64,000 bases of DNA, from assembly GCF_014651635.1 (NCBI RefSeq), contig NZ_BMXG01000013.1:1-64000 (forward strand), read 5' to 3'. The position numbers and the translations under genes were made by a program. Shown here piece by piece: positions 742-43,392 of this stretch. Below the pieces are notes generated by a model that saw nothing but the letters and a program-made list of their open reading frames with translations, was not told where the DNA came from and made no database searches. The stretch's first letter is position 1. Each line of letters opens with the position of its first letter. The stretch comes from Cerasicoccus arenae (lineage in GTDB: Bacteria > Verrucomicrobiota > Verrucomicrobiia > Opitutales > Cerasicoccaceae).

Positions 742-765
742 ATTTGGCTAACCATGCGCTGGTAT

Positions 766-793
766 TCATCATGCGTAAAAGATGCTTTTTTTT
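766..793 (+). terminator. possible weak terminator after the DUF1905 gene
   Basis: A short CATC...GATG hairpin is followed by eight T residues (786-793). The stem is only about four pairs, so the T-run is the main evidence. Confidence 0.3.
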
Positions 794-819
794 AATTACC
801 CAAAACAAAGAAGACAAAT

Positions 820-924: not shown

Positions 925-1000
925 GCATAACTTCGATCTCAAAGCTAAATTCACCGACATGAATTAGGGCAATAAGCTCTATCATAGTCGTCACTCCCAA

Positions 1001-1090
1001 TGGTGGAACCCGGTGTCCCAACCGGGCTATTCCATCCTTTTGGCGGTGAGGCAGGGCTTGCCCGGTCGGGACACCAAGCTCCACCTTGGA
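1001..1090. repeat. dispersed palindromic repeat, copy A
   Basis: An imperfect palindrome of about 90 bases. The left arm (GGTGGAACCCGGTGTCCCAA onward, 1002-1027) pairs with the right arm (1060-1085), which contains GCCCGGTCGGGACACC and GCTCCACC. A closely similar copy in the opposite orientation lies at 59401-59490, and the similarity extends through the loop, not just the arms. It fits a small non-coding mobile or REP/MITE-like element. The interval 925-1213 holds nothing else I can support. Confidence 0.7.
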
Positions 1091-1179
1091 CAAACGAAAG
1101 CGTAACTGCCTCCCCGCACTGAAGGTGATCCCATTCGAGCCTACTCCACATGCTGCATTGCTCGAAGTCGTTGTCTCTG

Positions 1180-1199
1180 AAAAGGGCACCCACCCTTTA
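1180..1199 (-). terminator. possible terminator after the aminotransferase gene
   Basis: On the minus strand AAAGGG-TGGGTG-CCCTTTT forms a six-pair hairpin ending in a short T-run, about 15 bases past the stop codon at 1214. The stem is short, so confidence is limited. Confidence 0.35.
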
Positions 1200-1213
1200 A
1201 TTAAACAGGTAGA

Positions 1214-2341
1214 TCAAGAGAGACGTTCTCGCGCAACTGCGATAACTCTGCCTTGCTGTTCAGCACTCAAGCTGCTGCCACTGGGTAAGCAAACACCAGT
1301 CTCAAACAATCGATCTGCAACGCCGCGGTTCAGCGTTTCATAGCCTGCACAAGCAGGTTGGCGATGCATTGGTTGCCAAACGGGTCGAGCTTCGATATTT
1401 TCCGCTTCCAAGGCGTCAATCATTTCAGTTGAGGTGCACGCGGCCGCCTTACCGAGCGTTAGGCATGTCAGCCAGCGGTTGCATCGGCCCCAAGTTGCCT
1501 CAGGCATGAAATCAACTCCTGGCGCATTCCCCAGTTCATCAAAGTAACGGTCAAATATCGCGCGACGGCGGTTGATCATCGAATCCAAACGAGACACCTG
1601 CGCCAGTCCCAGCCCCGCCAGCAAATTGCTCATCCGATAATTGTAACCAACCTCATGGTGAAGGTATTCACGGACTGGTGCGCGCGCCTGGGTCGCCAAA
1701 TGGCGCGCATGCTCGGCGATTTTTGGGTCATTGGTCAAAAGAGCCCCGCCCCCCGAAGTCGTCACGATTTTATTGCCATTAAACGACAAGGCCGCAGCTC
1801 GGCCAAATGAACCGGCACCTCGCCCTTGGTAAGTTGCCCCCAATGCCTCGGAGGCGTCTTCCACCACGGACACACCATAACGTTCACAAAGCGGGATAAT
1901 CGCATCCCAGTTGGCGCACTGTCCATAGACATCGACCACCTGTACTGCCTTGGGCAATTGCCCACGTGCGGCATCACGCTTCAGCATTTCGGCGAGAATA
2001 TCTGGATCGATCTGCCAACTCTGGGCCTCGCTGTCGATAAACACTGGCTCTGCCCCACAGTAACGGATTGCGTTCACTGAGGCAATAAAGGTCAAGGTCG
2101 AGCAGTAAACACGGTCACCCAAGCCAACACCTGCCTCAAGTAGAGCCAAATGCAGTGCAGCGGTACCGGAGGACAGCGCCACAGCGTGCTCGACGCCTGT
2201 GACGGCGCACAAGGCCTCCTCAAACTGCTTCAAGTGCGGCCCGACCGGCGCAATCCATCCTGAATCAAACGCAGCAAGCAAGGCCTCACGCTCAGTGGGC
2301 GTCATGTCGGGAGAGGATAGGAATATGCGGGATGGGCTCAT
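1214..2341 (-). CDS. DegT/DnrJ/EryC1 sugar aminotransferase (PglE/VioA-like)
   Basis: A 375-residue PLP-dependent aminotransferase of the DegT/DnrJ/EryC1/StrS family. Such enzymes transfer an amino group from glutamate to a keto group of a nucleotide-linked 6-deoxy sugar in the cytoplasm. Visible marks are GWIAPVGPHLKQFE near the start, SSGTAALHLAL, VEDASEALGA, and SFNGNKIVTTSGGG, where Lys191 should hold PLP. The opening and the Lys region closely resemble what I remember of Campylobacter PglE, which aminates C4 of UDP-4-keto-6-deoxy-GlcNAc. VioA of dTDP-viosamine synthesis is a related possibility. I chose the ATG at 2341 because the upstream extension (to 2440) would not belong to the family. 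It is divergent from epsI, and a hairpin sits just before its start. Confidence 0.9.
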   Translation of the reverse strand: MSPSRIFLSSPDMTPTEREALLAAFDSGWIAPVGPHLKQFEEALCAVTGVEHAVALSSGTAALHLALLEAGVGLGDRVYCSTLTFIASVNAIRYCGAEPVFIDSEAQSWQIDPDILAEMLKRDAARGQLPKAVQVVDVYGQCANWDAIIPLCERYGVSVVEDASEALGATYQGRGAGSFGRAAALSFNGNKIVTTSGGGALLTNDPKIAEHARHLATQARAPVREYLHHEVGYNYRMSNLLAGLGLAQVSRLDSMINRRRAIFDRYFDELGNAPGVDFMPEATWGRCNRWLTCLTLGKAAACTSTEMIDALEAENIEARPVWQPMHRQPACAGYETLNRGVADRLFETGVCLPSGSSLSAEQQGRVIAVARERLS

Positions 2342-2347
2342 GAAACG

Positions 2348-2367
2348 AAACTTTCGGTTGAAAGTTT
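2348..2367. promoter_or_regulatory. perfect inverted repeat before the aminotransferase start
   Basis: AAACTTTC-GGTT-GAAAGTTT is a perfect 8-4-8 inverted repeat six bases upstream of the aminotransferase ATG, in the 107-base divergent region shared with epsI. It could be an operator, or a leader hairpin affecting initiation. Confidence 0.45.
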
Positions 2368-2448
2368 GGAACGGATGACCGATAATGTCATCTCTATTTA
2401 CAGCGACTTCTCGCGTTATACGACGAATTCGCAGACACATTTTTTCTC

Positions 2449-3162
2449 ATGCGCAAAATCTTTTTAATCTTCGGTGCCATCATTGCAACGGGCAGCTTTA
2501 TTGCCCTCGCATACACCGCGTTTTTCTATACTCCGCCAAAGACGATGAGCGGGGAGCTCCAGCAACGCCTATTATCGCAATATGATGGCTGGGAGATTGA
2601 AGACCAGCCCTTAGCCGAAACCGAGGCAATGGAGGAAACAGTAGAAGGTATTCTGAATTTCTCACAAGCAGTCTACCGGACATATGTGCGTGGAAAAACA
2701 CAGATCGGGGTCTATGTCGCCTATTGGGAACCGAAGATGATGCCCGTGCGCCTTGTTCAGTCCCACACACCCGACGTCTGCTGGGTACGCAGCGGTTGGA
2801 CAATGATCGAGGGCGAAAGCGAATACTCCGTGCCTTGCCGATTGGGCGAGCAGCCACTTTATCCCGCCGAAATACGCACTTTGGAAAAGAACAGTCACAC
2901 TCAGTACGTTGCCTATTGGCATGTATTGGGTGACGAAATTTACGTCAACCGCTCACGTGCAGGTCAATGGGATCGCTGGGACCCCATCAAAACGCTCTTT
3001 ACGTATGGGCTTCATCAGCAGCGCGAACAATTCTTCGTCCGAATCAACAGCAATCAGCCAATTGACGAGATCTGGGACCTACCCATCATGCAGGAAATCC
3101 TCACTGATTTAGCCGAGTTGACTCTGACCCCGCCCCAAGCCCCCGTGCAGGCACAACTGTAG
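2449..3162 (+). CDS. epsI: EpsI-family exosortase-associated protein
   Basis: Encodes 237 residues. Residues about 5-28 form an N-terminal membrane segment, and the rest is predicted periplasmic. SHTPDVCWVRSGW (residues about 105-117) matches the H-x-P-x-x-C...GW signature of the EpsI family. The family accompanies exosortase (Xrt) systems, which anchor PEP-CTERM proteins, and is usually found in exopolysaccharide loci. No exosortase and no PEP-CTERM protein is visible here, so this copy is an orphan or its partner lies elsewhere. It is followed after 15 bases by an acetyltransferase on the same strand, and together they form a short operon divergent from the rest of the locus. The start has no obvious Shine-Dalgarno site. 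Confidence 0.8.
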   Translation: MRKIFLIFGAIIATGSFIALAYTAFFYTPPKTMSGELQQRLLSQYDGWEIEDQPLAETEAMEETVEGILNFSQAVYRTYVRGKTQIGVYVAYWEPKMMPVRLVQSHTPDVCWVRSGWTMIEGESEYSVPCRLGEQPLYPAEIRTLEKNSHTQYVAYWHVLGDEIYVNRSRAGQWDRWDPIKTLFTYGLHQQREQFFVRINSNQPIDEIWDLPIMQEILTDLAELTLTPPQAPVQAQL

Positions 3163-3177
3163 CCTACGGGAAATATA

Positions 3178-3738
3178 ATGAGCCAGCTCGACATTCAAGG
3201 TAATCGTGCAGGGCGGAAACACACATGCAGATACATTGTTCGACGGGGATTATGGGAATGCGGGCGTGTTCTGTTCCGCCTGACTCCAGTCCCTCTTTTC
3301 AAACTGCGCTCCGTAATCCTACGCTGCCACGGCGCGCGTATTGGCCGCGACGTACGTATTCATCCGGCAGCCGTCATTTCCTATCCCTGGAATCTTGAGA
3401 TCGGAGATTTCGCTGCATTGGGTGAAGGCGTGTTCGTGGATAATCACGGCCTCGTCAAGATCGGTCAGCGAGCCACTATTTCCCAATGCGCTCACCTCTG
3501 TAGCGGCACTCACGACTACACAGACAAAACAATGCCCCTCTTGATGCCACCGATCACGATTGGCCAAGATGCTTGGATTTGCGCTGGTGTTTTTGTGGGC
3601 CCAGACGTCACCATAGGAGATGGGGCCGTGGTTGGAGCACGAGCGGTCGTCGTAAATGACATTGCTCCATGGATGGTTGCTGTGGGCCATCCCGCAAAGG
3701 CAATCAAACCGCGGGTATTACAAGACGCCCCTCAATAG
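3178..3738 (+). CDS. WcaF-like sugar O-acetyltransferase (left-handed beta helix)
   Basis: A 186-residue putative acetyl-CoA-dependent acetyltransferase of the WcaF/LbetaH type, acting on a sugar residue of the polysaccharide. Hexapeptide-repeat turns run from about residue 50 (ARIGRDVRIHPAAVI, LEIGDFAALGEGVFV) to 170 (VTIGDGAVVGARAVV). CSGTHDY contains the likely catalytic His, and the ending VAVGHPAKAIK is typical of the family. It is co-directional with epsI and convergent with the LuxE-LuxC gene, whose stop codon lies two bases away. A paralogue with the same architecture is at 22919. Confidence 0.85.
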   Translation: MSQLDIQGNRAGRKHTCRYIVRRGLWECGRVLFRLTPVPLFKLRSVILRCHGARIGRDVRIHPAAVISYPWNLEIGDFAALGEGVFVDNHGLVKIGQRATISQCAHLCSGTHDYTDKTMPLLMPPITIGQDAWICAGVFVGPDVTIGDGAVVGARAVVVNDIAPWMVAVGHPAKAIKPRVLQDAPQ

Positions 3739-3739
3739 C

Positions 3740-6229
3740 TTACATTGGTCCGCCCAGCGTATACCACTTAACCAATCGATCCAGCGGGAACAATCCGTCC
3801 CAAGGCGCTTCAAACAGCGTCATTCGTCCAATATCGGGGAAACGCTCGGCACCGCGTTGAGCGGCTCGGCGCGCAAAGTCGAGCCGCTGCTCACCCGATA
3901 GAGCCAGCCCCACCGTCTGAATACTATCATTGATTAGCGGCAACACATTTTCCGCCTGATCAATCGCCCTTATGGTAATCACACGACCATAGCAAGGGGG
4001 TGCCAACTCCGCACCGGCATCATCAAGGATCACTGTCCATGCGACTCCAGCCGAACGCCATACGCGACCAGTCAATTCGCCACGGATACGACGTGCTTCC
4101 ACGCGTGAAGCGTCGTCTGCGCTGATCGGGGGCGATGGAAAGCGCACCAGCGCCTGATCTAATTCAGCGGCTAATTTCGTGGCAAAGTCTTCTGCCGAAA
4201 ATACCCCGTCACGCTCAATAAATACTGTATGTGGTGAGGCGCATCCCGTCTGTTCGAACACGCATACATCTGTCGCCGCACGGCGGGCAAGTCGTTGAAA
4301 GGCGCGCTCGGTTGCCAGTGCCGAACGACCAATCACCATAAAGGATAACTTCGGCCCAAAGATAATATCTTCGGCGCTCACTTTGCGAGGCAAAGTAGAC
4401 ACCGCTTCCACCGCTTCACGCCCTCCCCAAGCCAAACGCACATCGGCTTCGCGTGAAATCGCTTCTGCTGACACACGATCATCTCGATCACAGTAAACGA
4501 TCGCAAGGGAAGCAAGCAGGTCATCTCCCAATAACGTGCGCCCTCCGGGGGTCTTAATCTCCAACCCACGGAATGATTCCAGCAAGAGCGGCAACACCCG
4601 CGTAAACCGGCTCGCGGCTTTCAGTAAGTTGGCATTACGTGCCAGAATAGACTGCACCAGCGTAAGCATTCCAAGCACTGGCACATTGCCCGCAAGCCAA
4701 TGAACGACTAGCCCACGATGTCGCGCCCCGAGCTGACGCACACGGTTACCGCCGACAGGGCGCGGCCCGTCAAGATAGCTACGATGTCCGCGTAAACTAT
4801 CGTCTGCCAGCCGCGATAAACGCTCTGGCTGACACCATGAGCTTAGGAAAATCAGGCCTTGTTGGCGAAGCTCTGCCAAGGGTGAATCCGGGGCGACCCA
4901 ACGCTCCGCTACGGCTGCAATCAGTGCAATCAAGTCATCCACCGAATAAGCATCCAGACGACTACGACCGATGCGTAGTCGCTCAGCCAAGTCAGCCACA
5001 GAGTCTACTTTGGGCAATGATTCCATCGCCAACGGCGCATCCCAGCGCGCCTGCGTTGCCGGAGCAGCTTCCGACGAAAATAACAATCGTAAATCGCCCT
5101 GCCCTTTAGCCACCCGCTTTCGAGCTGCTGCGACTTTATCGCCCAGAATATCGCCACAGCCTCGAACCTCCGCTTGCTTCGCGCGTCCTAGCACACGAAA
5201 GCGCGTCCCTTGCCAGTCGCCAATGGGGTCACGGCCAGTGATCACCCCGATATCATCCGTCAACACCGAGATACCTGGGTAACTGTGAGGAAGGGGTGTT
5301 AAAAACTGGAGAAGGCCGGGTTCGCCATCGGGTGCGGGCATTAGCGTTTGCGGATCGCGGACAATCACTTCGGCAAAAGCGGGGGCTGTTTTATCGCCCG
5401 TTGGACCATCGGGATAAGTCACACCCATTTGTTCGGTAAAGCCGTAAAAATCCACGACGTTCTCCGGCGGCAACCCAAATACCTTCGCCGCCTTCTCGGC
5501 AAATACATCCTTAGACACTGCGCGATCAGCCAATTTCTTCCATCCACCCAAATGAGCCAGATGCGAGCCAGCAGGCAATTGCAAGGTGACTCCCGCATCC
5601 GCTAGCGGCTCCAGCGCCAATGAATAAAGCAAATAAGTGAAACCAAATAACAGAACCGGCTCTTCAGAATTTCGCCAATGTGCAGCTAGCTCCTCTAAAA
5701 CTTTGCGTTGCAAAGTTAGGACACCGTGCTCGGGTGCCACGACATATTCCACCTCGCGGGCAAGATTAAGAAAGCCCTGCACTGCGGCGCTACGCGCTCC
5801 CAACATGCCACCACCACTACGCGGGTTGACATCGAACACCGCCACCGGACGACGCTTAGGGCCTAACGCAGCGCTCAATACACCAGCCAATGCGCGAACT
5901 TGGCGCTTCGCGGTAATCGCGTCGATCGCAACCGTGCTCGGCAGACCACTAGTGGCTGACGATTGCAACGTTGATTTCACCTGATCGTTCGAAACCGAGC
6001 GCAACAAGTCAGCCGACTCCTTGAATGCCTGTACTGGCAAATAAGGAAAATCAGCTAAATCCAGGAAGACGCTCGAACGGACGAGCCCTCGGCCTTCACA
6101 GAATCGACGGTAGGCAGCACAGTGGTCAAAGTGATGCTGATAAGCCTCATACATCGCCGCTAAAAGCTGCTTTGTTCGCTCATCAGCCGGCAATGAGTAA
6201 GGTGGCGTTTGGAGTAATTGGTCGATCAT
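3740..6229 (-). CDS. LuxE-LuxC fusion: acyl-protein synthetase joined to acyl-thioester reductase
   Basis: One 829-residue chain holds two enzymes that are separate in luminous bacteria. Residues 1 to about 370 resemble LuxE (acyl-protein synthetase), with FPYLPVQAFKES, the SSATSGLPS loop, and VVDFYGFTEQMGVTYPD. Residues from about 430 resemble LuxC (fatty-acyl reductase of the aldehyde-dehydrogenase fold), with VVHWLAGNVPVLGMLTL and FEQTGCASPHTVFIE, in which Cys663 is the likely thioester nucleophile. LuxE activates a fatty acid with ATP and passes it to a Cys of LuxC, which reduces it with NADPH to an aldehyde. Here the chain is translationally coupled (ATGA overlap at 6226-6229) to an alcohol dehydrogenase and follows an acyl ligase and ACP, so the substrate is probably a small acid attached to a surface glycan precursor. 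No luciferase genes are present. Confidence 0.85.
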   Translation of the reverse strand: MIDQLLQTPPYSLPADERTKQLLAAMYEAYQHHFDHCAAYRRFCEGRGLVRSSVFLDLADFPYLPVQAFKESADLLRSVSNDQVKSTLQSSATSGLPSTVAIDAITAKRQVRALAGVLSAALGPKRRPVAVFDVNPRSGGGMLGARSAAVQGFLNLAREVEYVVAPEHGVLTLQRKVLEELAAHWRNSEEPVLLFGFTYLLYSLALEPLADAGVTLQLPAGSHLAHLGGWKKLADRAVSKDVFAEKAAKVFGLPPENVVDFYGFTEQMGVTYPDGPTGDKTAPAFAEVIVRDPQTLMPAPDGEPGLLQFLTPLPHSYPGISVLTDDIGVITGRDPIGDWQGTRFRVLGRAKQAEVRGCGDILGDKVAAARKRVAKGQGDLRLLFSSEAAPATQARWDAPLAMESLPKVDSVADLAERLRIGRSRLDAYSVDDLIALIAAVAERWVAPDSPLAELRQQGLIFLSSWCQPERLSRLADDSLRGHRSYLDGPRPVGGNRVRQLGARHRGLVVHWLAGNVPVLGMLTLVQSILARNANLLKAASRFTRVLPLLLESFRGLEIKTPGGRTLLGDDLLASLAIVYCDRDDRVSAEAISREADVRLAWGGREAVEAVSTLPRKVSAEDIIFGPKLSFMVIGRSALATERAFQRLARRAATDVCVFEQTGCASPHTVFIERDGVFSAEDFATKLAAELDQALVRFPSPPISADDASRVEARRIRGELTGRVWRSAGVAWTVILDDAGAELAPPCYGRVITIRAIDQAENVLPLINDSIQTVGLALSGEQRLDFARRAAQRGAERFPDIGRMTLFEAPWDGLFPLDRLVKWYTLGGPM

Positions 6230-7350
6230 CGACTGGCCTCCAGCACTTCGGCTACGGCAGCAGCGTCAACATCTCGCGGATTCATTCGAGCACATGGGTC
6301 CTCCAACGCGCCAACGGTAATCTGGCCCAAATTAGTGTGAATTTTGTTCGGCAACGCTTCTACTTCTAGCAATGACACCAGCACCTGAATCTGATCGATC
6401 AAGCCCGCGGAATTATTGAAGCCCAACACAGCCGCCAAAACATCGTATTTACTACGTGTCGCAGAATTCCCGCAATTAAAGCGAATCGCGGAAGCCAACA
6501 ACTGGCCTGTTGCCTGTCCATGGGCGACGCCATAACATCCCAACTGGTGTGCGATCGCGTGACCGATGCCGGGGACCTTCTGATTTTGCACCCAGCCAGC
6601 CAGCAGTGCTGCATTCATCAAGCGTTGTGCAAGTCCTTCATCGTCCGGTGTACGCCAATAATCAGGGAGTGCTGAAAAAATTTCTGCCGCTGCCTTCTCG
6701 GCCAACACATCGGCCAAGGTATTTTCCAGCCGCGATCCGTAGCTCTCCACTGCATGCGCCAGTGCGTCAAGCCCGGCATGCGCAATGACCATAGGCGAAC
6801 AGCCAATGGCCAATTGCGGATCGAGCACGACGACATCAGGCAACAGTTCATGCGAAATCAAAGCGCGCTTGGTCCCGGTTTCTGAATCAATTAAAAGCGC
6901 CGACGAGCTCACCTCCGAACCAGTCCCTGCGGTCGTTGGTGCAGCAGCGAATTTTGCTTTGCCGCGCAAAGTTGGCACGCCGCCCATGCGGAATAATCGA
7001 TCTCGCGCGACGGCAGGATGCTCGTAAAGCACCCAGGCACTCTTGGCACCGTCTATCACCGATCCGCCACCCACCGCGATAATCCAGTCCGGCTGAAATG
7101 TTTCCAATTGCGCCAAGATAGGCGTCAAGACATCCAGCGTCGGTTCCCCGCGTGGCATTTCGATCAGCATTAACGCCTCCGCACCAATCGCACGCTCCAA
7201 TGCACCACGATGCTTCGTCAATACCGAAGGTGAAACCAACACCGCCGCCTTGGATGCATCGAGTGCTCGCAACGCACCCAATGATCCCGGGCCACTGAAG
7301 ACTTCTCCAGCAGAAACAAAACGAGGTAAAGGTAGGCGAATTTGCAGCAT
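6226..7350 (-). CDS. iron-containing alcohol dehydrogenase family protein
   Basis: A 374-residue group III (Fe-dependent) alcohol dehydrogenase. It shows the NAD-binding VGGGSVIDGAK (about residues 85-95), TTAGTGSEVSS, and metal-binding His residues in LDALAHAVESY and GIGHAIAHQLG. It probably interconverts an aldehyde and an alcohol, taking the product of the LuxC domain encoded directly downstream. A TTG at 7398 would overlap the ligase stop codon as TTGA and add 16 residues. I prefer the ATG at 7350 because MLQIRLPLPRF resembles the normal beginning of the family. Substrate specificity cannot be read from sequence. Confidence 0.85.
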   Translation of the reverse strand: MLQIRLPLPRFVSAGEVFSGPGSLGALRALDASKAAVLVSPSVLTKHRGALERAIGAEALMLIEMPRGEPTLDVLTPILAQLETFQPDWIIAVGGGSVIDGAKSAWVLYEHPAVARDRLFRMGGVPTLRGKAKFAAAPTTAGTGSEVSSSALLIDSETGTKRALISHELLPDVVVLDPQLAIGCSPMVIAHAGLDALAHAVESYGSRLENTLADVLAEKAAAEIFSALPDYWRTPDDEGLAQRLMNAALLAGWVQNQKVPGIGHAIAHQLGCYGVAHGQATGQLLASAIRFNCGNSATRSKYDVLAAVLGFNNSAGLIDQIQVLVSLLEVEALPNKIHTNLGQITVGALEDPCARMNPRDVDAAAVAEVLEASR

Positions 7351-7394
7351 ACGAACAATCAATAGCCTAAGATGAAAGACGAATAAACCAAGCG

Positions 7395-8786
7395 TCAACC
7401 ACCACCAGAAATAAGCACTTTCCGCTTGAGCTTACCGCTTTCAGTTCGAGGTAAATGGTCGATGCGGACAAACTGCGTGGGCGTTTCGTAGACTTGCAAT
7501 TGCCCGCGGCAATATTGCGTGAGCGCATCTGCATCCAACTCGGAAGCGGCGACATAGTACGCGACGACCGAATCACTGCCCACCACCGCGCACTCAGACA
7601 AACCGGGGAATTGCTCCAACACACGCTCAACAGCGAGCGGGTTGATTTTATAACCGCCGAAATTAATGATGTCGTCAATTCGGCCAGTAATGTAGAGGTA
7701 GCCATCGGCGTCAAAACGACCCAAGTCGCCAGTATGCAGCACGCCAGCGCTTAGTGCGGATTCCGTTGCGGCAAGATCACGCCAATAGCCTGGCGTCACC
7801 GTCGGCCCGCCAATTAGCACTTGGCCATCGGCGTCCAGTTGAAGATCAACGTCCTTCATCGGACGCCCCACGGAACGATAGCGCCCTGGACCCTCGCGAG
7901 TGAGCGAAATAAACGTCGAGCGCGAAGCCTCCGTCAGCCCATAATAGACCAAAACATTAAGCTGCGGCAGTAAGGCCTGAAGCTGCGCTGCGCGCTCTGG
8001 AGGAAGTGGAGCTGAGTTGACAACCATGAACCGTAGCCTTTGCGCACGTTCGGCAAAGGCTTCGCCATAACGATCAAGCAACAAAGCGATGCCAAGCGGC
8101 GTAGTCGGAAAACCAGTCGCGCCAAACTCTTTTATTGCCTTCAATACACGGCCAACGCGGGCCAAGCCAGGTTCCAAATAAACCGCCCCCCCGGCCAGCA
8201 GATTGCAATATACATGCCCAAGACCAAAATTGTGCGATAGAGGCAGCGTAATGACTTCACGGTCTTGCTCAGTATAACCGATAAAATCTACAATGTTCCG
8301 TAACGCAGCGAAGATGTTGGCATGGGTCAGCATAACGCCCTTAGGTTGCCCCGTCGTGCCTGTTGTAAACATGAGCGCTGCTAGATCATCAGCGGCACAG
8401 TTTACTGGCGAAACGAGCGGCGTAGCGGCCTCAATTTCGCCCCAAGACGAATTCGCATCCAACGAACATTTCGGCTCGGCGCTGGCTATAATAGCAGCCA
8501 CCTGTGGAGGCGTTAGCGCGGGGTCCAACGGCACTGAAACCGCTCCCGCCGACTGGACACCGAAATGTGCCACCACAAAGCGAACACTGTTCGGCAAATG
8601 CACAGCGACGCGATCCCCCGGTCGTATCCCCTCCCCTACAAGCCATGCCGCAACACGAGCGGACTGCTCTGCCAGCTCGGCATAAGTTAGCGAGCCACTG
8701 GCGTCAGCAACTGCTTCACGTGTTGGCCAATGAAGCGCGCCTTGGACGATAATGTCCGATAGTTTATGCAAAGCCAAGTGGGTCAC
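7395..8786 (-). CDS. AMP-dependent acyl-CoA/acyl-ACP synthetase
   Basis: A 463-residue member of the ANL adenylate-forming family, which activates a carboxylic acid as acyl-AMP and transfers it to a thiol. It has the phosphate loop FTTGTTGQPKG, YYGLTEAS, TGDLGRF, the hinge GRIDDIINFGGYKINP, and a C-terminal catalytic Lys in TESGKLKRK. Because an acyl carrier protein gene lies immediately upstream in the operon, the acceptor may be the ACP rather than CoA. The GTG at 8786 is preceded by GGGAGGGG about 11 bases upstream. The longer GTG at 8807 has no such site. The acid is unknown. Confidence 0.88.
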   Translation of the reverse strand: MTHLALHKLSDIIVQGALHWPTREAVADASGSLTYAELAEQSARVAAWLVGEGIRPGDRVAVHLPNSVRFVVAHFGVQSAGAVSVPLDPALTPPQVAAIIASAEPKCSLDANSSWGEIEAATPLVSPVNCAADDLAALMFTTGTTGQPKGVMLTHANIFAALRNIVDFIGYTEQDREVITLPLSHNFGLGHVYCNLLAGGAVYLEPGLARVGRVLKAIKEFGATGFPTTPLGIALLLDRYGEAFAERAQRLRFMVVNSAPLPPERAAQLQALLPQLNVLVYYGLTEASRSTFISLTREGPGRYRSVGRPMKDVDLQLDADGQVLIGGPTVTPGYWRDLAATESALSAGVLHTGDLGRFDADGYLYITGRIDDIINFGGYKINPLAVERVLEQFPGLSECAVVGSDSVVAYYVAASELDADALTQYCRGQLQVYETPTQFVRIDHLPRTESGKLKRKVLISGGG

Positions 8787-8822
8787 TGTGTAAAAATCCC
8801 CTCCCACCCAATGCCAATCGGC

Positions 8823-9053
8823 TTAGCGTGCCGAATAGCGTTTGAGCGCATCCTGAAAATCGCCCACCGTTTCCAGATCTACGGCATCGGCGACATCAAA
8901 GGTGATGCGAAACTCGCGTTCGATCGTCATGATGAGATTCATGTGCGCAAGAGAATCCCATTCAGGAATGTCGCCCGCACCGAGGTCATCCGAATACTGG
9001 CTCGGATCAATCTTGAGTTGGGCAATGACGAGGTCGCGAAGTTTATCTTGCAT
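8823..9053 (-). CDS. acyl carrier protein
   Basis: A 76-residue acyl carrier protein. EWDSLAHM holds the DSL motif, with Ser34 as the site for 4'-phosphopantetheine. It presumably carries an acyl chain as a thioester between the ligase and the LuxE-LuxC chain or the PglD/VioB-like acyltransferase. The ATG at 9053 gives the standard ACP length. A TTG at 9089 overlapping the upstream stop would add 12 residues. This is a specialised ACP inside a polysaccharide operon, not the primary AcpP, as shown by the absence of fatty-acid synthesis neighbours such as fabD, fabG and fabF. Confidence 0.9.
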   Translation of the reverse strand: MQDKLRDLVIAQLKIDPSQYSDDLGAGDIPEWDSLAHMNLIMTIEREFRITFDVADAVDLETVGDFQDALKRYSAR

Positions 9054-9085
9054 GGTATTTGAACAGAAGGTCGGCAGCGGCGTTG

Positions 9086-9760
9086 TCAAGCGCGAGGTTT
9101 TTCGTCACGCCGTTTCCGAGAAAAAACAGGCCGTCCGGGCATCGTCGCCAAGGTCACACCAGACTCAACATCGCTGGCAGCAAATGTGTTGGCGGAAACC
9201 AACGCGTAATCGCCAATGGACACACCGGGCTGGAGAACTGCGTTACTGCCGAGAAATGCGCCACGCCCGACTCGGCAACGCCCAGTCACCACCACGCCGG
9301 GACAAAGCTGCGCGCCATCGCCGATGATAGCCTCGTGTCCCACGACCGCAGAAACGTTGATCAGCGCCTGCGCTCCGATAACGGTCTGAGGTGCGATCGA
9401 GGCAAAGTGGCCGATGAAGCTTCCGAGTCCAATCTGGGCATCGGAAGCGATTTCCGCCTTTGGGCTGATGAGTGAGGCTGGCGTTAAGCCCAGTGCAATT
9501 AGTTCATCGGCCAACCGCAAGCGCACGCGATTATCTCCAATAGCAATATGAAAGGCCGTACCCGACGGAAGTTGCTGGGCTGCCACATCGGGCGTCCCGA
9601 GGACAGGCAAGCCGCCTATTGTTTCCCCAGCAGAAACCGAGTCATCGGCAAGTCCAACGAGGTGCCAGTCGGCCGATTTAACGGTATTCATGGCCTCAGC
9701 GAGCCAAATAGCCTCCAAGGCGAAACCGCCAGCGCCAATAATGAGTAAGGGTGTGGACAT
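9086..9760 (-). CDS. PglD/NeuD/VioB-like sugar N-acyltransferase
   Basis: A 224-residue sugar acyltransferase of the NeuD/PglD type. An N-terminal Rossmann-like part opens with LLIIGAGGFALEAIWLAEAM. From about residue 95 there is a left-handed beta helix (IGLGSFIGHFASIAPQTVIG, GRCRVGRGAFLGSNAVL, VSIGDYALVSANTF). NVSAVVGHEAII contains the expected catalytic His. Relatives N-acetylate UDP-4-amino-6-deoxysugars (PglD), dTDP-viosamine (VioB) or sialic acid precursors (NeuD). With the DegT aminotransferase, an acylated 4-amino-6-deoxysugar is the most economical reading. The acyl donor might be the neighbouring ACP-bound acid rather than acetyl-CoA, which is inference. Confidence 0.85.
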   Translation of the reverse strand: MSTPLLIIGAGGFALEAIWLAEAMNTVKSADWHLVGLADDSVSAGETIGGLPVLGTPDVAAQQLPSGTAFHIAIGDNRVRLRLADELIALGLTPASLISPKAEIASDAQIGLGSFIGHFASIAPQTVIGAQALINVSAVVGHEAIIGDGAQLCPGVVVTGRCRVGRGAFLGSNAVLQPGVSIGDYALVSANTFAASDVESGVTLATMPGRPVFSRKRRDEKPRA

Positions 9761-9774
9761 GATGAATCGATGGG

Positions 9775-10224
9775 CTAGTCGGCGAGCGAATGGTTCAGTT
9801 GATAAGAGCCAGGACCGGGTGAGATCAGTTCAATGAGTCCACGTAGGGGATCGTGGAACCACATAATTCGTCGTCCAAAGGCAACACCGATTGCCGGTTT
9901 CCCCAACGGAACACATCCGCCAGACCGAAGTGTCTGAATCGATGAGTCGAAATTATCCACTGCGTAAGCCACGTGATGCAGCGATACTTTGCGCTGTAAA
10001 GCACGCTGTAAATGACTGTCGGTAGAGTCAGGGCTTATCAGTTCAATCCAATGCGAGGCACTCGGTTGACGCAACAAACAAACCAACGCCTGCTGGCCAG
10101 CATCGTGGATGATTTCGCCGTCCAATTCGTAACCATAAACATCAACCCAATGCTGACGCGCCGTATCGATATTCTCGACGAGGTAACCAATGTGATGCAG
10201 ACGAAAAGTTGAATCATGACTCAT
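9775..10224 (-). CDS. VOC (glyoxalase/methylmalonyl-CoA epimerase-like) protein
   Basis: A 149-residue protein with two beta-alpha-beta-beta-beta modules of the vicinal-oxygen-chelate fold. Each module starts with a metal-binding His (LHHIGYLVENID near residue 10, LHHVAYAVDNFD near 83) and ends with a Glu (WIELISPD, LIELISPG). The pattern is closest to methylmalonyl-CoA epimerase and lactoylglutathione lyase. In this operon it might epimerise or rearrange the acyl thioester carried on the ACP or CoA. The substrate is unknown. It overlaps the phosphoglycosyl transferase stop codon by four bases (ATGA). Confidence 0.8.
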   Translation of the reverse strand: MSHDSTFRLHHIGYLVENIDTARQHWVDVYGYELDGEIIHDAGQQALVCLLRQPSASHWIELISPDSTDSHLQRALQRKVSLHHVAYAVDNFDSSIQTLRSGGCVPLGKPAIGVAFGRRIMWFHDPLRGLIELISPGPGSYQLNHSLAD

Positions 10225-10814
10225 TGTTGGTCTCCCATAAACTCTGGCATGGTGTCGGCTCCGGCGGGTGACACGCCCTCACGCCGCAGCACTTTACCAA
10301 GAGTCATCGCAATAATTTTGAGATCAAGGATGAAGCTCCGATGATCGACATACCAGACATCGAGACGGAAACGCTCCTCCCACGTAATAGCATTTCGGCC
10401 ATTAACTTGAGCCCAGCCAGTAATTCCCGGACGCACGGCATGGCGGCGAGCCTGCTCTGGAGTATAACGCACCAGGTAACGCACGAGCAGTGGGCGAGGC
10501 CCGACAAAACTCATTTCACCACGTAAGATATTCCAAAGTTCCGGTAACTCATCCAAACTGACACCGCGCAACCAGCGTCCAAACGACGTTAACCGCTGTG
10601 AATCGGACAATGGATTACCCATTTGGTCGCATGCATCCGTCATCGTTCGGAATTTGATTAAGTTAAACACGTGGCCATTGAGTCCCGGTCGAGGCTGGAT
10701 AAAAAAAATCGGGCTCCCCAACTTAATACGCACTAAAATGCATAAAAGAACCAGCAATGGCGATAATGCAAACAGGAGCGTCGCAGCAAAAAGGAAATCA
10801 AACACGCGCTTCAT
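10221..10814 (-). CDS. PglC-like phosphoglycosyl transferase (initiating sugar transferase)
   Basis: A 197-residue membrane enzyme that transfers a sugar-1-phosphate from a nucleotide sugar to undecaprenyl phosphate, starting a lipid-linked glycan. It has a single N-terminal hydrophobic segment (residues about 3-28, FDFLFAATLLFALSP). The catalytic core follows: NLIKFRTMTDACDQMGNPL, SLDELPELWNIL, SFVGPRPLL, and RPGITGWAQVNGRN. The short form without extra membrane helices is that of PglC, which uses UDP-diacetylbacillosamine, rather than WcaJ. The ATG at 10814 gives MKRVFDFLF, the usual beginning. It is the second initiating enzyme in the locus besides the WecA-like fusion. Confidence 0.92.
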   Translation of the reverse strand: MKRVFDFLFAATLLFALSPLLVLLCILVRIKLGSPIFFIQPRPGLNGHVFNLIKFRTMTDACDQMGNPLSDSQRLTSFGRWLRGVSLDELPELWNILRGEMSFVGPRPLLVRYLVRYTPEQARRHAVRPGITGWAQVNGRNAITWEERFRLDVWYVDHRSFILDLKIIAMTLGKVLRREGVSPAGADTMPEFMGDQQ

Positions 10815-10852
10815 GGATATGCATTTTAGCCGCTCATTGGGCCAGTTCCAGA

Positions 10853-12160
10853 TTACAAACGCCAATATTCAAACCCGGCAGCTTTCGCCTCGTCGCGTCC
10901 AAACATGCCCCGCACATCGATCAAGCTAGGCCGCTCAGGTGAGCATCGAGCTCGCAACGCATCGAGTTTAAGTGTTTCACAAAAATGTCGGTGACGAACG
11001 GCGGCAAGGATACCATCAAATTCACCTTCTGGCGGCAGATCTGAAAGTATTTCCACGCCATATTCCTCCATGACTTCTTCGGGGTCAGCCAAAGGATCGC
11101 ACACGATTGGTTGCACGCCAAACTGCGTCAAATGCTGATAGACATCGACGACGCGGGTATTGCGGGTATCGGGCACATTTTCCTTAAAGGTCCAGCCGAG
11201 GATCAAAACGCGGGCACCTTTCACCATACTGCCAGATTGGATCAACCCATGAATAATTTGCTGCCCGATGTATGCTCCCATCCGATCATTGATACGCCGA
11301 CCGGCGAGAATCAAATCTGGATGCAAGCCGACCTCTTGCGCCTTGTGCGTCAGGTAATACGGGTCCACGCCAATACAATGACCGCCCACCAAGCCAGGTT
11401 GGAACGGTAGGAAATTCCATTTGGACCCGGCAGCGCGGAGCACGGCGTCGGTGGGGATTTCCAACCGGTCAAAGAGCACCGCCAGTTCATTCATGAGGGC
11501 AATATTCAAATCACGCTGGGTGTTTTCAATTACCTTGGCGGCTTCTGCTACCTTGATGCTTTCGGCGCGATGCACTCCGGCAATGATCACACTCCCATAA
11601 AGTTCGGCCAGATAATCAAGTGTCTCAGGAGTATCTCCCGCCACTACTTTAGTAATCTTTTCCACCGTATGTTCACGGTCACCAGGATTGATTCGCTCTG
11701 GCGAATAACCTACGAAAAAGCCTTCGCGCCACTTCAAGCCACTGCTTTCGGTAAGAATCGGTACGCAAACCTCCTCCGTTAAACCAGGATAGACCGTGGA
11801 TTCATAAACGACGATGGCCCCATTTTTCATGTGTCGGCCCACCATTTTACTAGCGGCGCAAACAGCGGTCAGGTCAGGACGGCGATAGACGTCAATTGGA
11901 GTCGGCACCGTAACGATAAAAACGTCTACCTTGGTTAAGAGAGCGGCGTCCGTCGTCAACTCCAGTGTGCTCTTTTCCAGGTCTTCAGGACTGGCCTCAC
12001 CGGTGACATCCAAGCCCGACTTCAGTTGAGTCACTCGCGACTCACTGATGTCAAAGCCAATCACATTGAAATGGCGCGCTAGACAGATCGCCAATGGCAA
12101 GCCCACGTACCCCAAACCAATAACCGCGATGCGGGCTTCATTCAAAGGGGAAAAACTCAT
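10853..12160 (-). CDS. UDP-HexNAc 6-dehydrogenase family (TviB/WbpO-like)
   Basis: A 435-residue nucleotide-sugar dehydrogenase that oxidises C6 of a UDP-sugar to a uronic acid with NAD. The Rossmann start is VIGLGYVGLPLAICLA. TVPTPID, YESTVYPG, SPERINPGD and GGHCIGVDPYYL follow, with the catalytic Cys262. ERINPGD and the Cys context are those of TviB/WbpO/WbpA (UDP-GlcNAc or UDP-GalNAc dehydrogenases) rather than UDP-glucose dehydrogenase, which is encoded separately at 48399. It is separated by 38 bases from the downstream phosphoglycosyl transferase. Confidence 0.9.
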   Translation of the reverse strand: MSFSPLNEARIAVIGLGYVGLPLAICLARHFNVIGFDISESRVTQLKSGLDVTGEASPEDLEKSTLELTTDAALLTKVDVFIVTVPTPIDVYRRPDLTAVCAASKMVGRHMKNGAIVVYESTVYPGLTEEVCVPILTESSGLKWREGFFVGYSPERINPGDREHTVEKITKVVAGDTPETLDYLAELYGSVIIAGVHRAESIKVAEAAKVIENTQRDLNIALMNELAVLFDRLEIPTDAVLRAAGSKWNFLPFQPGLVGGHCIGVDPYYLTHKAQEVGLHPDLILAGRRINDRMGAYIGQQIIHGLIQSGSMVKGARVLILGWTFKENVPDTRNTRVVDVYQHLTQFGVQPIVCDPLADPEEVMEEYGVEILSDLPPEGEFDGILAAVRHRHFCETLKLDALRARCSPERPSLIDVRGMFGRDEAKAAGFEYWRL

Positions 12161-12223: not shown

Positions 12224-14152
12224 TTACTTCGGTATAGAAGGTTTTTGAGGCTCCTGCTGTCCTTCATGTGTCTCATGCATGATTTCATCGGTTACCGTGC
12301 TCCAGAGACTCAGGAGTACGCCTCGCCGAGCAGTGATTTCGCGGATCCGGGATTCATTAACCTCGAGCAGATCCGCCGTGATAACAATTTCGTCGATATC
12401 GTGGGAACCCAGAATATCTTCTAGCTCTTCCAAATGCCCGAGCACACGGACCCCATGCACGAATCGACGACGCAGATTCACATCATCATCAATAAAGCCG
12501 ATGATTTTACGCGTGGCCATTTCATCTGGATGAACTAGTCGAAGCTCACGCAGGTAAAGCGCACCACGGTTACCAGCACCATAAAGCAGTATATGCCGGA
12601 CGACATAGCGACTCGCTGCCCGCTCATTCAGCGCAGATATCATCATCCACTCCCGTAAGGTCTGAGTGATCACCCGCACTCCAAAAATCCCGAACATACT
12701 GAAGTAGGCGAACATAATGCTGATGCGGAGGTTCTCGGTTTTCAGATCCGCATCCGCTGCCGATAGAAAGGCAAATGTCAGCAGCACACCAACTGTAAGC
12801 GAAAAGAATAAAATTAGGTAATCACGAAAATTGCTGCGCGACCAGACCCTTGAATAGGTGTGTCCCAATACCAACATTAAGAATACTGGAGAAATCCAAA
12901 CTGGAAGCAATTGTGCCCATTCTCCCACGCCCAACCCCATCATTGCGGGGTATTGTAGCAACATTGCAGCCACCAGCGATATCGAGAGCCAGATTAAGTC
13001 GCAAACCGGATATACGATCATACCGATCACTGCACGCCCCGGACGCTTAATGCCCTCTGCCAAAAGACGCCCAGTATCCCAGATTTCGACGTGCACCACG
13101 TGCCGCACAACGACGTATACACCCGAAATAAACACGATGAGAAAGAGCCCGACCAACGCCTTGCTCATGAAAATAGAAAACAACCCAATCGCTACCAGCA
13201 ACAAGTTACCCATGTAGAGAATAACCGCGACTTTGCGCTGCGAGAACCCGGCTTCTAACAGACGGTGGTGCAGGTGCTCCTTGTCCGCCCCCATGATCTT
13301 TGGACCTTCTTCCCCCCCCCCCAGTTTGGCAGTCAAACGCCGAGCTGAACGCCGCCAAATCGCAAGGATTGTATCCATGATCGGCACGCCAGCGGCAAGA
13401 AAAGGTACCCCAATGCTCACTAGCACCGTAGATTTGCCCGCACTCTCCAAAGCAAGCGAGGCCAATGCAAACCCCAAGAACATGGAGCCAGTGTCTCCCA
13501 GAAAAATGCGCGCCGGATGAAAATTGTAACGAAGAAAACCCAAAACCGAACCGATCAGCGCCAAAACAATGAGAGAATCTGCTGGCTCCGCACGCAGCAG
13601 GAAGGCCGCACCTATACCTAGGCTAGAAATAATCGCCAAACCACCACAAAGGCCATCCAGCCCATCAATCAGATTGAACGCGTTGATTAGCGCAACACAC
13701 CAGACAATAGTCAGGATCAGATTAATAAACCAAGGGAAGTCTATCCCCAGCATGTGATCGAACCCTTTACCCGAGAGAAAGAACAAGACGCAACTGGCAG
13801 CAATTTGACCTCCCAGCTTAATAATTGGACTCGTTCCTTTTATATCGTCCCAGATACCAACTGCACAGAGGATCGAAGATGCTGCCAAGAAACTGAGCCA
13901 CCACTGCTCATCCAGTCGTCCAGTAAAGGTCCAAGGCCAAATATAGGCGTACAGACAAACCGCAGCGAAATTGAAGGCCAAGAATACCGCAACTCCCCCA
14001 GCCCTAGGTATCGGCGTTTTGTGGATACGACGCTCATCCGGCATGTCAATCATGCCCAAACGCGGCCCGAGCCATATCATGACTCGCGTGAGGATCAGCG
14101 ATACAGCAAAGCCGACGCCAAAAACCACGAAGTATTTCGACAACTCATTCAT
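12224..14152 (-). CDS. WecA/MraY-like phosphotransferase fused to CapD/WbpM-type N-terminal half
   Basis: A 642-residue protein with two unrelated parts. Residues 1 to about 370 are a polytopic UDP-GlcNAc:undecaprenyl-phosphate GlcNAc-1-phosphate transferase (WecA/TagO type), with DERRIHKTPIPRAGG, AFNLIDGLDGLCGG, FLGDTGSMFLG and HLHHRLLEAG. Residues about 380-510 add further membrane helices. These are followed by a soluble Rossmann domain (HILLYGAGNRGALYLREL, IGFIDDD, IDEIVITADLL) of the kind at the N-terminus of CapD/WbpM/PglF. The catalytic dehydratase (SDR) domain that follows in those proteins is absent, and the chain ends shortly after. A run of 11 G residues on the coding strand (13312-13322) lies at residues 277-281, before the HHRL motif. 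Confidence 0.88.
   Translation of the reverse strand: MNELSKYFVVFGVGFAVSLILTRVMIWLGPRLGMIDMPDERRIHKTPIPRAGGVAVFLAFNFAAVCLYAYIWPWTFTGRLDEQWWLSFLAASSILCAVGIWDDIKGTSPIIKLGGQIAASCVLFFLSGKGFDHMLGIDFPWFINLILTIVWCVALINAFNLIDGLDGLCGGLAIISSLGIGAAFLLRAEPADSLIVLALIGSVLGFLRYNFHPARIFLGDTGSMFLGFALASLALESAGKSTVLVSIGVPFLAAGVPIMDTILAIWRRSARRLTAKLGGGEEGPKIMGADKEHLHHRLLEAGFSQRKVAVILYMGNLLLVAIGLFSIFMSKALVGLFLIVFISGVYVVVRHVVHVEIWDTGRLLAEGIKRPGRAVIGMIVYPVCDLIWLSISLVAAMLLQYPAMMGLGVGEWAQLLPVWISPVFLMLVLGHTYSRVWSRSNFRDYLILFFSLTVGVLLTFAFLSAADADLKTENLRISIMFAYFSMFGIFGVRVITQTLREWMMISALNERAASRYVVRHILLYGAGNRGALYLRELRLVHPDEMATRKIIGFIDDDVNLRRRFVHGVRVLGHLEELEDILGSHDIDEIVITADLLEVNESRIREITARRGVLLSLWSTVTDEIMHETHEGQQEPQKPSIPK
13312..13322. 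repeat. poly-C/poly-G tract (11) within the WecA-like fusion gene
   Basis: Eleven consecutive C residues on the plus strand encode the Gly run in AKLGGGEEG. A change of one base would remove the HHRL active-site motif and the whole C-terminal half. Confidence 0.9.
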
Positions 14153-37684: not shown

Positions 37685-38545
37685 TCATTGAAGAATCGTC
37701 CGTAGATATTCTCCATAGCCGGATTTATCTAGCTTGGATGCCAACTCGAGTAGTTGCTCGTCGTTAATAAATCCACTACGATAGGCCACTTCTTCAATAC
37801 AACCGATCTTAAGTCCCTGACGCTCCTCGACAATACGAACAAAGGTCGAAGCTTCATTGAGGGATGCGAAAGTCCCTGTATCGAGCCAAGCAGTACCACG
37901 GTTAAAAATTTCCACGCTCAATCGCCCTTGATCCAGATAAGCCTGATGGATCGCGGTAATTTCATATTCACCTCGAGCAGAAAGCTCTACTGACTCTGCA
38001 ATAGCGATGACATCGTTATCGTAAAAATAGAGACCGGGAACCGCATAATTGGACTTTGGGTGGGGCGGTTTCTCCTCGATAGAAATCGCATGCTTGCTTT
38101 GATCAAATTCGATTACGCCATAATGCTGAGGGTCCTGTACGGGGGCAGCAAACACCACCGCGCCAGACGGGTCCGTATGACTTTGAACAAGTTCGCTAAA
38201 GCCAGATCCGTAAAAAATATTATCTCCAAGCACCAAAGCAACTTTGCTATCTCCAATGAACTCTTTGCCGATGACAAACGCTTGCGCAAGACCGTTAGGC
38301 ACTTCTTGAACTGCGTAATGAAACTCACACCCTAAAGACTTACCATCCCCTAGAAGCCTCTGAAAAGCTGGCCCGTCTTCGGCAGTTGTGACAATCAGAA
38401 TTTCGCGTATGCCCGCTAGCATGAGTACCGACAACGGATAATAGATCATCGGCTTATCGTAGATCGGCATCAACTGCTTGGAAACAGCGAGTGTGATCGG
38501 ATATAGACGAGTCCCAGTACCAGCAGCTAAGATGATTCCCTTCAT
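37685..38545 (-). CDS. rmlA: glucose-1-phosphate thymidylyltransferase
   Basis: A 286-residue enzyme that makes dTDP-glucose from dTTP and glucose-1-phosphate. The start is [18 protein letters not shown], followed by [50 protein letters not shown], and [14 protein letters not shown], all canonical for RmlA. It is coupled to rmlB by a four-base overlap. rmlC and rmlD, needed for dTDP-L-rhamnose, are not in the window, so the pathway may branch after RmlB to another sugar. Confidence 0.96.
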
Positions 38546-39600
38546 CCGATTTTACCCAATCTCTCGAGTTGGTAATCGCCACGCAGAATACACTCCCACC
38601 AACTGCGATTCTCTAAATACCATTGAACCGTTTTACGAAAACCGTTTCCGCCTCCTTCAAGTGGTGACCATCCGAGTTCACGCACGATCTTTGATGCATC
38701 GATCGCAACACGCAGATCATGACCAGGCCGATCCGAGACAAAAGTAATGAGCGATGCGTGTCCACCCGCCGGAGCCTCTTCCACGAGTTCATCCATGATC
38801 GAACAAAGCGTCTGAACAAGATCGATATTCCTCAGTTCATTTCCCCCGCCAATGTTATAAGTCTCACCGACTCTTCCGCGTGTAAGCACCGTATACAATG
38901 CCTCGGCATGGTCGGTTACATACAGCCAGTCGCGGACATTTTCACCCCGTCCATAAACCGGGATTGATTCGCCTCGAAGACATTTGAGGATTACCACCGG
39001 GATCAGCTTTTCCGGAAACTGAAAAGGCCCGTAATTATTAGAGCAATTGGTAACAATGACTGGTAGGCCATAGGTTTCGCCCCAAGCCCGCGCCAAGTGA
39101 TCTGACGCCGCTTTACTCGCGGAATATGGAGAGTGAGGGTCGTAAGCCGTGCTCTCTGAAAAAGCTGGATCATCGGCCATCAACGAGCCAAAAACTTCGT
39201 CAGTCGATACATGGACAAAACGAAACGCTTCACGACGCTCAGTCGCCAGTGATTCGTAATATTCACGCGCAGCTTGCAAGAGAACAAACGTACCGACGAC
39301 ATTGGTCTGTATGAATTCGGCCGGACCGTCGATTGAGCGATCCACGTGGCTCTCTGCTGCTAAATGAAGCACTGCGTCCGGTTGATGCTGCGCAAATAGA
39401 CGGTTCAAATCGGTTGCCGATGCGATGTCAGCCTGCTCGAATGAATAAGCCCGATGATTCTCCAAATCTTTTAAAGATTCCTGATTACCAGCGTAAGTTA
39501 GCTTATCTACGTTAACCACGCTTTCGGATTTTTCCAACACCAGCAAACGGATCAGATTTGATCCAATAAAACCACAACCACCTGTAACCAATATCTTCAT
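38542..39600 (-). CDS. rmlB: dTDP-glucose 4,6-dehydratase
   Basis: A 352-residue extended SDR enzyme that converts dTDP-glucose to dTDP-4-keto-6-deoxyglucose. The cofactor loop is [72 protein letters not shown] and [14 protein letters not shown] are the RmlB signatures, including the catalytic Tyr-x-x-x-Lys. The ATG at 39600 gives the normal N-terminus. A TTG at 39612 overlapping the kdsD end is less likely. Its product could feed the DegT aminotransferase at 1214. Confidence 0.96.
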
Positions 39601-39608
39601 TCCAATAC

Positions 39609-40619
39609 TCAACTCCGACGAGAATTTGGCGAGAAGTCTGCCAGAATATCGTGCATCCGCAACATCCCCACCAATATCTGTTTCGGGCCTTCAACAACCG
39701 GCAACACGTAAATTTTGCGCGCCTCCATCAGTTCCAGTGCATCATTGATCGTGGTACTGATATCAATAGCCACTGGGTTGACTGTCATAAGCTCACGGGC
39801 AAGGGCTTGAATGATGTCAGGCTGCAAAAGTGAGCGACGAACATCTCCATCAGTGATAATCCCTTGGAGGGCACCAGCTTCATCAACCACACACGCCGCA
39901 CCCAAATTAGGACGAGTCGATTCGGCGATCACATCACGAAAAGAAGCATTCGGCAGTATCTTCGGAAGCTCATCACCACGGTGCATGAGATCGCTCACCT
40001 TGAGCAGGAGGCGAACACCCAAACCGCCACCAGGATGACGCAGTGCAAATTCGTCTGGGCGAAATCCTCGTGCTTTCATTAACGCCGCGGCCAGCGCATC
40101 ACCAATGACCAATGCGCACGTAGTGCTGCTCATCGGCGCTAGATTCAAAGGGCATGCTTCTTTTTCTACCGCAGCGTTAAGCACAACGTCACAGCGCCGA
40201 GCCAGCGGCGTATCGCATTTTCCCAAAAGACCAATGATCGGCGCGCCCAATCGGTCCAAACTCGGCAGCATCTTCACTAGCTCAATGGTAGCGCCGCTAT
40301 TCGATAGCATTAGCACTGCATCCCCCTGAGATACGTAACCTAAATCGCCGTGCAGTGCCTCTGCTGCATTCATGAATATTGCTGGTGTCCCCGTGCTGGC
40401 TAATGTCGCGGCGATCTTCGCTCCGATGAGTCCAGATTTGCCCAAGCCAGTCACCACCACTTTACCCTTCACAGAGAGGATAAGGTCTACCGCCTCATTA
40501 AACTGACTGCTGATGCGCTGAAGCGTCAGGTCCAGCGAAGCCATTTCGTCTCGGAAGACTTGTTGGGCTGTTTCGTAGTGATTCAAATGTCTAATGTTAT
40601 CGCAAAACCTGCGATTCAT
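39609..40619 (-). CDS. kdsD: D-arabinose-5-phosphate isomerase
   Basis: A 336-residue enzyme that interconverts ribulose-5-phosphate and arabinose-5-phosphate, the first step to Kdo. An N-terminal SIS domain has [36 protein letters not shown] and [11 protein letters not shown]. Two CBS domains follow (from about residue 210, with [11 protein letters not shown]). It lies four bases past kdsA, so the two Kdo genes are clearly paired. The family includes KpsF/GutQ, which have the same activity. Confidence 0.95.
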
Positions 40620-40622
40620 TTT

Positions 40623-41402: not shown

Positions 41403-41403
41403 G

Positions 41404-43385: not shown

Positions 43386-43392
43386 AAAAAAT

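Follow-up and report, generated by a model that had tools for sequence, protein, structure and literature searches.

A probable tetronate-type acyl cassette with a fused LuxE-LuxC protein in a polysaccharide locus of Cerasicoccus arenae

The first 64,000 nucleotides of contig NZ_BMXG01000013.1 of Cerasicoccus arenae (assembly GCF_014651635.1), a stretch that we call the window, contain a run of six open reading frames (ORFs) on the minus strand, read from position 10224 down to 3740. ORF calls and family profiles assign them, in reading order, to a VOC-superfamily protein, a NeuD/PglD-type acyltransferase, an acyl carrier protein (ACP), an AMP-forming ligase, an iron-containing alcohol dehydrogenase and a single chain that joins LuxE to LuxC (LuxEC; Table 1). 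The same ORFs and families had been named in an earlier reading of the letters alone (the original prediction), and its coordinates proved right, with profile matches to all families named. The operon is genuine, was correctly observed and is of a described kind. We consider it probable, at roughly two in three, that these genes form a tetronate-type (RfbKLMN-type) acyl-group operon within a polysaccharide locus of the Cerasicoccus lineage.

Taking the longest ORFs as called, successive genes are spaced, from the VOC gene onward, by +14, -4, +15, -4 and -4 bases. Homologues of the dehydrogenase and of the carrier start inside the called ORFs, at ATG 7350 and ATG 9053, and by this comparison the true starts probably lie there as well, in which case two of the three overlaps become gaps of 44 and 32 bases. 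The operon (3740-10224) has a G+C content of 55.2%, against 49.7% for positions 10225-48400, a mild difference.

Table 1. Genes of the operon and of the glycan locus around it, by position in the window
Feature	Position	Strand	Profile matches
DegT/LegC/perosamine-synthetase-type sugar aminotransferase	1214..2440	-	PF01041; TIGR04181 374.3 bits, below cut-off 420
WcaF-like hexapeptide acetyltransferase, convergent with operon	3178..3738	+	NF007797 175.1 bits, below cut-off 192
LuxE-LuxC fusion, 829 amino acids, RfbN-like	3740..6229	-	PF04443 (LuxE, 1.2e-88) and PF05893 (LuxC, 8e-79) in one chain
Iron-containing alcohol dehydrogenase, RfbM-like	6226..7398 (probable start 7350)	-	PF00465, PF25137
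AMP-forming acyl ligase, 470 amino acids, RfbL-like	7395..8807	-	PF00501, PF13193
Acyl carrier protein, RfbK-like	8823..9089 (probable start 9053)	-	PP-binding PF00550, 1.9e-05, above cut-off
NeuD/PglD/VioB-type hexapeptide acyltransferase	9086..9760	-	PglD_N, Hexapep; NCBIfam TIGR03570
VOC-superfamily protein, methylmalonyl-CoA-epimerase-like	9775..10224	-	Glyoxalase_4 PF13669
Initiating sugar-phosphate transferase (PGT), directly upstream of VOC gene	10221..10865	-	PF02397
RmlA and RmlB	37685..39612	-	TIGR01207 and TIGR01181, both above cut-offs

Within the fusion, the LuxE half spans residues 3-366 or thereabouts and the LuxC half, after a linker, about 427-822. Cys358 aligns with Cys364 of Photobacterium LuxE (chain 7xc6_E), which we take to be the acylated residue of that protein. 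The surrounding RGCGD does not vary among 10 aligned fused proteins, and neither Cys358 nor Cys663 (in the CASPH motif of the LuxC half) varies in two alignments, of 10 and of 11 fused proteins, the window's included; such conservation makes them the likely acyl-carrying cysteines of the fusion.

Does such an enzyme serve the production of light? The LuxE and LuxC domains and their cysteines align with those of the LuxC-LuxE reductase of luminous bacteria (7xc6), whose subunits are separate chains, in contrast to the single chain of the window. Its scores fall far below the cut-offs of the bioluminescence equivalogs (LuxC 96.3 against 750 bits for NF052251; LuxE 90.1 against 550 bits for NF052244), and a genome-wide profile search of the 4.1 Mb genome, in which the LuxC of the fusion is the sole LuxC, found no member of the bacterial-luciferase family (PF00296) and thus no luxA or luxB. 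The same search gave a match in 10 of 14 control genomes. We therefore reject a role in bioluminescence, in keeping with the original prediction, which had noted that luxA and luxB are absent here, an absence that now extends to the genome.

Likely active-site residues are also retained in the other core enzymes. In alignments of cassette members, from which L131 was excluded as a near-copy of L130, Asp211, His215, His280 and His293 of the dehydrogenase, presumably its metal-ligand positions, are invariant across 15 rows, and so are residues of the P-loop, the YGLTE motif and the C-terminal GK of the ligase (15 rows); the WDS motif of the carrier, whose serine lies in GDIPEWDSLAHM, is invariant in 13. 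The NeuD-type protein scores 166.2 bits against TIGR03570, above the curated cut-off of 160.8, and has solved PglD-type, VioB and perosamine N-acetyltransferase chains among its matches. At the position of the PglD active site, its His142 lines up with a histidine of 4m98 that we assume to be catalytic. By these likenesses it is a probable amino-sugar N-acyltransferase. The domain matches support the earlier proposal of an acid that, once activated, is loaded on a dedicated carrier and then probably transferred to an amino sugar, all within a glycan locus.

A related set of genes is known from the O1 antigen of Vibrio cholerae, whose tetronate pathway is reportedly called putative in the title of Morona et al. 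1995 (Gene 166:19). By printed annotation, rfbKLMNO (wbe) of V. cholerae O1 has the same core in the same order: carrier, ligase, iron-containing alcohol dehydrogenase and LuxE/LuxC. In print, VC0248-VC0252 are assigned to tetronate, which acylates the amino group of perosamine, and deletion of the ligase gene wbeL leaves V. cholerae without O1 antigen (PMC3441752); activation of 2,4-dihydroxybutanoic acid and its attachment to CoA or to the carrier RfbK are ascribed to RfbL (PMC12208996); RfbN is said to hold a LuxE domain (PMC4772473); and tetronate is stated to come from malate (PMC10746206, resting on a 2004 review). The rfbKLMN(O) match and the wbeL deletion phenotype largely refute, by the original prediction's own test, its statement that no pathway with exactly this set has been described. 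Synthesis of tetronate by these genes in V. cholerae O1 and its origin from malate are adopted from print, and the window operon would belong to the same type of cassette by its gene order, the printed gene names, its domains and its clade with probable Vibrionaceae (see below). What appears to be new is the occurrence in Verrucomicrobiota, for which one limited literature search listed only a paper on Riemerella, together with a partner enzyme of NeuD type instead of RfbO and the presence of a VOC protein that may set stereochemistry.

How might the cassette build such a group? In the chain that we infer for C. arenae, including its substrate, product and sugar and any role of the VOC protein, the LuxE half would adenylate the 4-carboxylate of malate (or of a close relative) and take the acyl group onto Cys358, from which the flexible linker would pass it to Cys663 of the LuxC half. 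Reduction there with NAD(P)H would yield the semialdehyde, and the iron-containing dehydrogenase would turn this into 2,4-dihydroxybutyrate (3-deoxytetronate). The ligase would activate the remaining carboxylate and load it on the carrier protein, and the NeuD/PglD-type enzyme would form an amide with the amino group of a nucleotide-linked 4-amino-6-deoxy sugar, supplied by the DegT aminotransferase.

The original prediction had allowed the carrier-bound acyl group two fates, transfer to an amino sugar or reduction to an aldehyde or alcohol. The former is retained; the latter is less likely, for with malate as the stated precursor reduction would act on the far carboxylate before loading and not on a carrier-bound acyl group. 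In this second version a carrier-bound (fatty) acyl group would yield an aldehyde or alcohol and so an alkyl or lipid substituent of the glycan, which we consider unlikely. LuxC and LuxE of luminous bacteria do reduce fatty acids, and a 'liposugar' has been proposed by the authors who described related carrier-FabG-ligase-LuxE-LuxC sets in the flagellin glycosylation islands of Aeromonas group II and Enterobacteriaceae. Those islands resemble the window in placing carrier, ligase, LuxE and LuxC in a glycan locus; they differ in that, in the passages concerned, luxE and luxC are separate genes accompanied by a 3-oxoacyl-ACP reductase (FabG-type), with no iron dehydrogenase mentioned there. The equivalog scores and the genome without a luciferase family, both given above, argue against a fatty substrate, as does the fact that print assigns this order of four genes to tetronate, and a dedicated ligase, carrier and N-acyltransferase speak for a product that is finally used as an acyl group.

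The descent of the fusion bears on its assignment to the tetronate type. A scan of genome contigs returned at least 513 relatives, and all neighbourhood counts refer to the best 80 loci, to genes on the same strand within 3.5 kb of LuxE, losses at contig ends being counted in. A tree of the LuxE part comprised 84 rows, namely the window, 78 of the 80 loci (L020 and L023, with a LuxE stretch below 280 amino acids, were dropped), L120 and L130-L133. It places the window in a clade of 16 rows (support 99/93), every one of them fused and every one with the iron dehydrogenase. Fusion is not confined to this clade, which holds 10 of the 23 fused loci among the 80. The dehydrogenase was rejected as a mark of it, since 9 of the 25 rows that bear the gene are unfused and lie outside.

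Among the best 80 of the relatives, the closest named ones are Cerasicoccus frondis and C. maritimus (77% and 76% LuxEC identity), in both of which the order is CapD-like, UDP-sugar dehydrogenase, PGT, VOC, NeuD, ACP, ligase, dehydrogenase, LuxEC, EpsI, DegT. The order ACP, ligase, dehydrogenase, fused LuxEC recurs in eight of the ten fused loci L010-L019, the other two (L014 and L017) ending at a contig edge before the carrier, and in all five of L120 and L130-L133. The genome of L120 (G415) belongs to the same order as an Alteromonas and gave no match to a Vibrio 16S probe. The genomes of L130-L133 are of the family of G336, the sole genome of 35 with a site for that probe, and are for this reason probably Vibrionaceae. 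Eight of 329 genomes in the G336 family match the protein at 1e-50, four with the full fusion; among 295 sampled genomes of the order, 36 do so at 1e-30, one with the full fusion. As judged from the tree, then, the window fusion is of common descent with its fused relatives, probable Vibrionaceae among them.

The five distant loci share the four-gene core, the fusion and the clade with the window. They differ in adjoining nonulosonic-acid-type genes (NeuB-, NeuC- and LegC-like) and in having other acyltransferase-like and polysaccharide-deacetylase-like proteins, all as read from their sequences. A published table for a Vibrio vulnificus isolate (PMC11264103) includes NeuC, a carrier protein, RfbN in two pieces and a polysaccharide deacetylase, a set that resembles that of L130-L133.

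Could the six genes be a chance or decayed neighbourhood without joint function? LuxC is fused to LuxE, or lies within 300 bases of it, in 78 of the 80 loci; a ligase is near in 75, a carrier in 62 and an iron dehydrogenase in 20, with all three present in 17. Per 10 kb, ligase genes number 1.17 within 3.5 kb of LuxE against 0.011 further out, carriers 0.94 against 0.079, and dehydrogenases, which cluster moderately, 0.30 against 0.057. Because all three densities peak near LuxE, the gene set goes beyond chance, and on this contrast we reject a fortuitous neighbourhood. The accessory VOC and NeuD genes do vary among relatives; with the gene order kept across phyla, ligase and carrier so strongly clustered, and reading frames and active sites intact, however, the probability left to such an explanation is close to nil.

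Several observations weigh against a tetronate assignment. In V. cholerae O1 the acetyltransferase VC0252 (RfbO) follows rfbN, by printed annotation, whereas the window has its NeuD-type enzyme upstream; directly after its LuxEC there is no RfbO-type gene, the next gene being the WcaF-like one on the other strand. The putative orthology of the fusion with RfbN rests on printed names and gene order. NeuD and DegT genes are not clearly enriched near LuxE (0.29 against 0.18 and 0.24 against 0.25 per 10 kb, near against far). The structure model of the fusion is weak, with a mean predicted local distance difference test (pLDDT) score of 70.3 and a poor LuxC half; residues 352-376, with pLDDT below 50 in a model that is equally low in some other parts, might act as a swinging arm. 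A fold search of the PDB with this model, led by PaaK-type ligases and with 7xc6_A at rank 46 (1.6e-07, root-mean-square deviation 17 A), is too weak to add to the sequence result. Printed accounts place the tetronate of V. cholerae O1 on perosamine, whereas no perosamine pathway was identified in the annotated ORFs of the window, where dehydratases were typed by general families only. Two further strong DegT proteins are encoded in the genome, and a CapD-type dehydratase lies on another contig. Finally, towards L120, L130, L132 and L133 the ligase shows only 29-31% identity, against 40-42% for the dehydrogenase.

This last difference suggests that the substrate may have shifted. Conceivably, the same cassette reduces another small dicarboxylic or hydroxy acid at one end and delivers, for example, a 4-hydroxybutyryl group as the N-acyl substituent, a reading to which an acyltransferase of another type than RfbO would also be congenial. 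Yet the choice of acid would fall to LuxE-LuxC and the dehydrogenase, both of them conserved throughout the clade, and we regard another acid as possible but unlikely.

The VOC protein stands apart from the tetronate-type core, and none is among VC0248-VC0252 as printed. It scores 51.4 bits against TIGR03081, below the methylmalonyl-CoA epimerase cut-off of 114.95. His11, Glu61, His84 and Glu132, which we take to be metal-ligand positions, are invariant in four of four sequences, that of the distant L120 included, where the gene lies 20 bases from LuxEC; this four-residue pattern probably binds metal. The protein may epimerise the acyl group, as originally proposed, but the VOC gene was found in just 4 of the 16 clade members (two of those without it, L014 and L017, end at contig edges near the ligase), and a profile survey, which returned solely the sequences used to build the profile and is therefore circular, shows no wider association. 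A specific version, which we consider quite unlikely, is that the protein is a carrier-bound 2-hydroxyacyl epimerase that inverts C2 of 2,4-dihydroxybutyryl-ACP, so that a mirror-image tetronate or a mixture is placed on the amino sugar, in the L120 lineage as well. If true, both the activity (for the VOC superfamily) and the glycan substituent would be new, and the arrangement would amount to a one-gene switch of bacterial surface stereochemistry.

Which sugar might accept the group? ORF annotation of the window covers positions up to 43971, and this part includes genes for many glycosyltransferases, for an O-antigen-ligase-type protein, for RmlA and RmlB and for 3-deoxy-D-manno-oct-2-ulosonic acid (Kdo) and heptose. 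Perosamine synthetases are among the solved chains nearest to the DegT protein, whose gene, by comparison with L018, probably starts near 2341, and the enzyme is by these matches a likely maker of a 4-amino sugar. RmlA and RmlB are present and no match to the RmlC family (PF00908) was found in the genome, which hints at a dTDP-4-keto sugar as precursor; the aminotransferase might draw its 4-keto sugar from RmlA and RmlB. The acceptor is not fixed by this, because of the other two DegT proteins and the CapD-type dehydratase elsewhere in the genome. Whether the WcaF-like gene is a member of the operon is uncertain.

Other genes of this locus deserve mention. An EpsI-like gene (DUF3485, exosortase-associated) lies at 2449-3162 on the opposite strand, between the DegT and LuxE-LuxC genes, and holds the same position in L010, L011 and L018. 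A 642-amino-acid protein (12224-14152) combines a CoA_binding_3 domain with a WecA-type domain of glycosyltransferase family 4. An 819-amino-acid DUF4838 protein is encoded at 14238-16697 within the run of glycan genes, and an ORF of equal length sits at a similar place in L018. Following RmlA and RmlB in their run, positions 39609-43971 carry Kdo genes (a KpsF/KdsD-type isomerase and Kdo-8-phosphate synthase) and heptose genes (GmhA and an HldE kinase type). In another locus, L121, a four-gene rml-like block occurs twice, at 281-3713 and 6648-10077, about 6 kb apart, the copies being alike in length and first residues.

If the tetronate assignment is right, the idea extends beyond Vibrio, and the reaction chain could conveniently be examined in a Cerasicoccus relative or with its purified enzymes. 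The best 80 loci span Verrucomicrobiota, Pseudomonadota, Bacillota, Bacteroidota, Acidobacteriota, Actinomycetota and several archaea, and LuxE-LuxC next to ligase and carrier in these many phyla may make small acyl groups for glycans. Within its own phylum the window protein is rare, with matches at 1e-20 in 4 of 288 sampled genomes (its own included, two full-length), and the LuxE family occurs in 5 of the 288. A plasmid search for the fusion returned 81 records, all below 60% identity. On archaeal contigs (Lokiarchaeota, Heimdallarchaeota, Thorarchaeota and others), LuxE, LuxC and an iron dehydrogenase adjoin in L020, L021, L028, L033, L036, L039 and L050; six of these seven, L021 being the exception, have ligase and carrier as well, within 3.5 kb and on the same strand.

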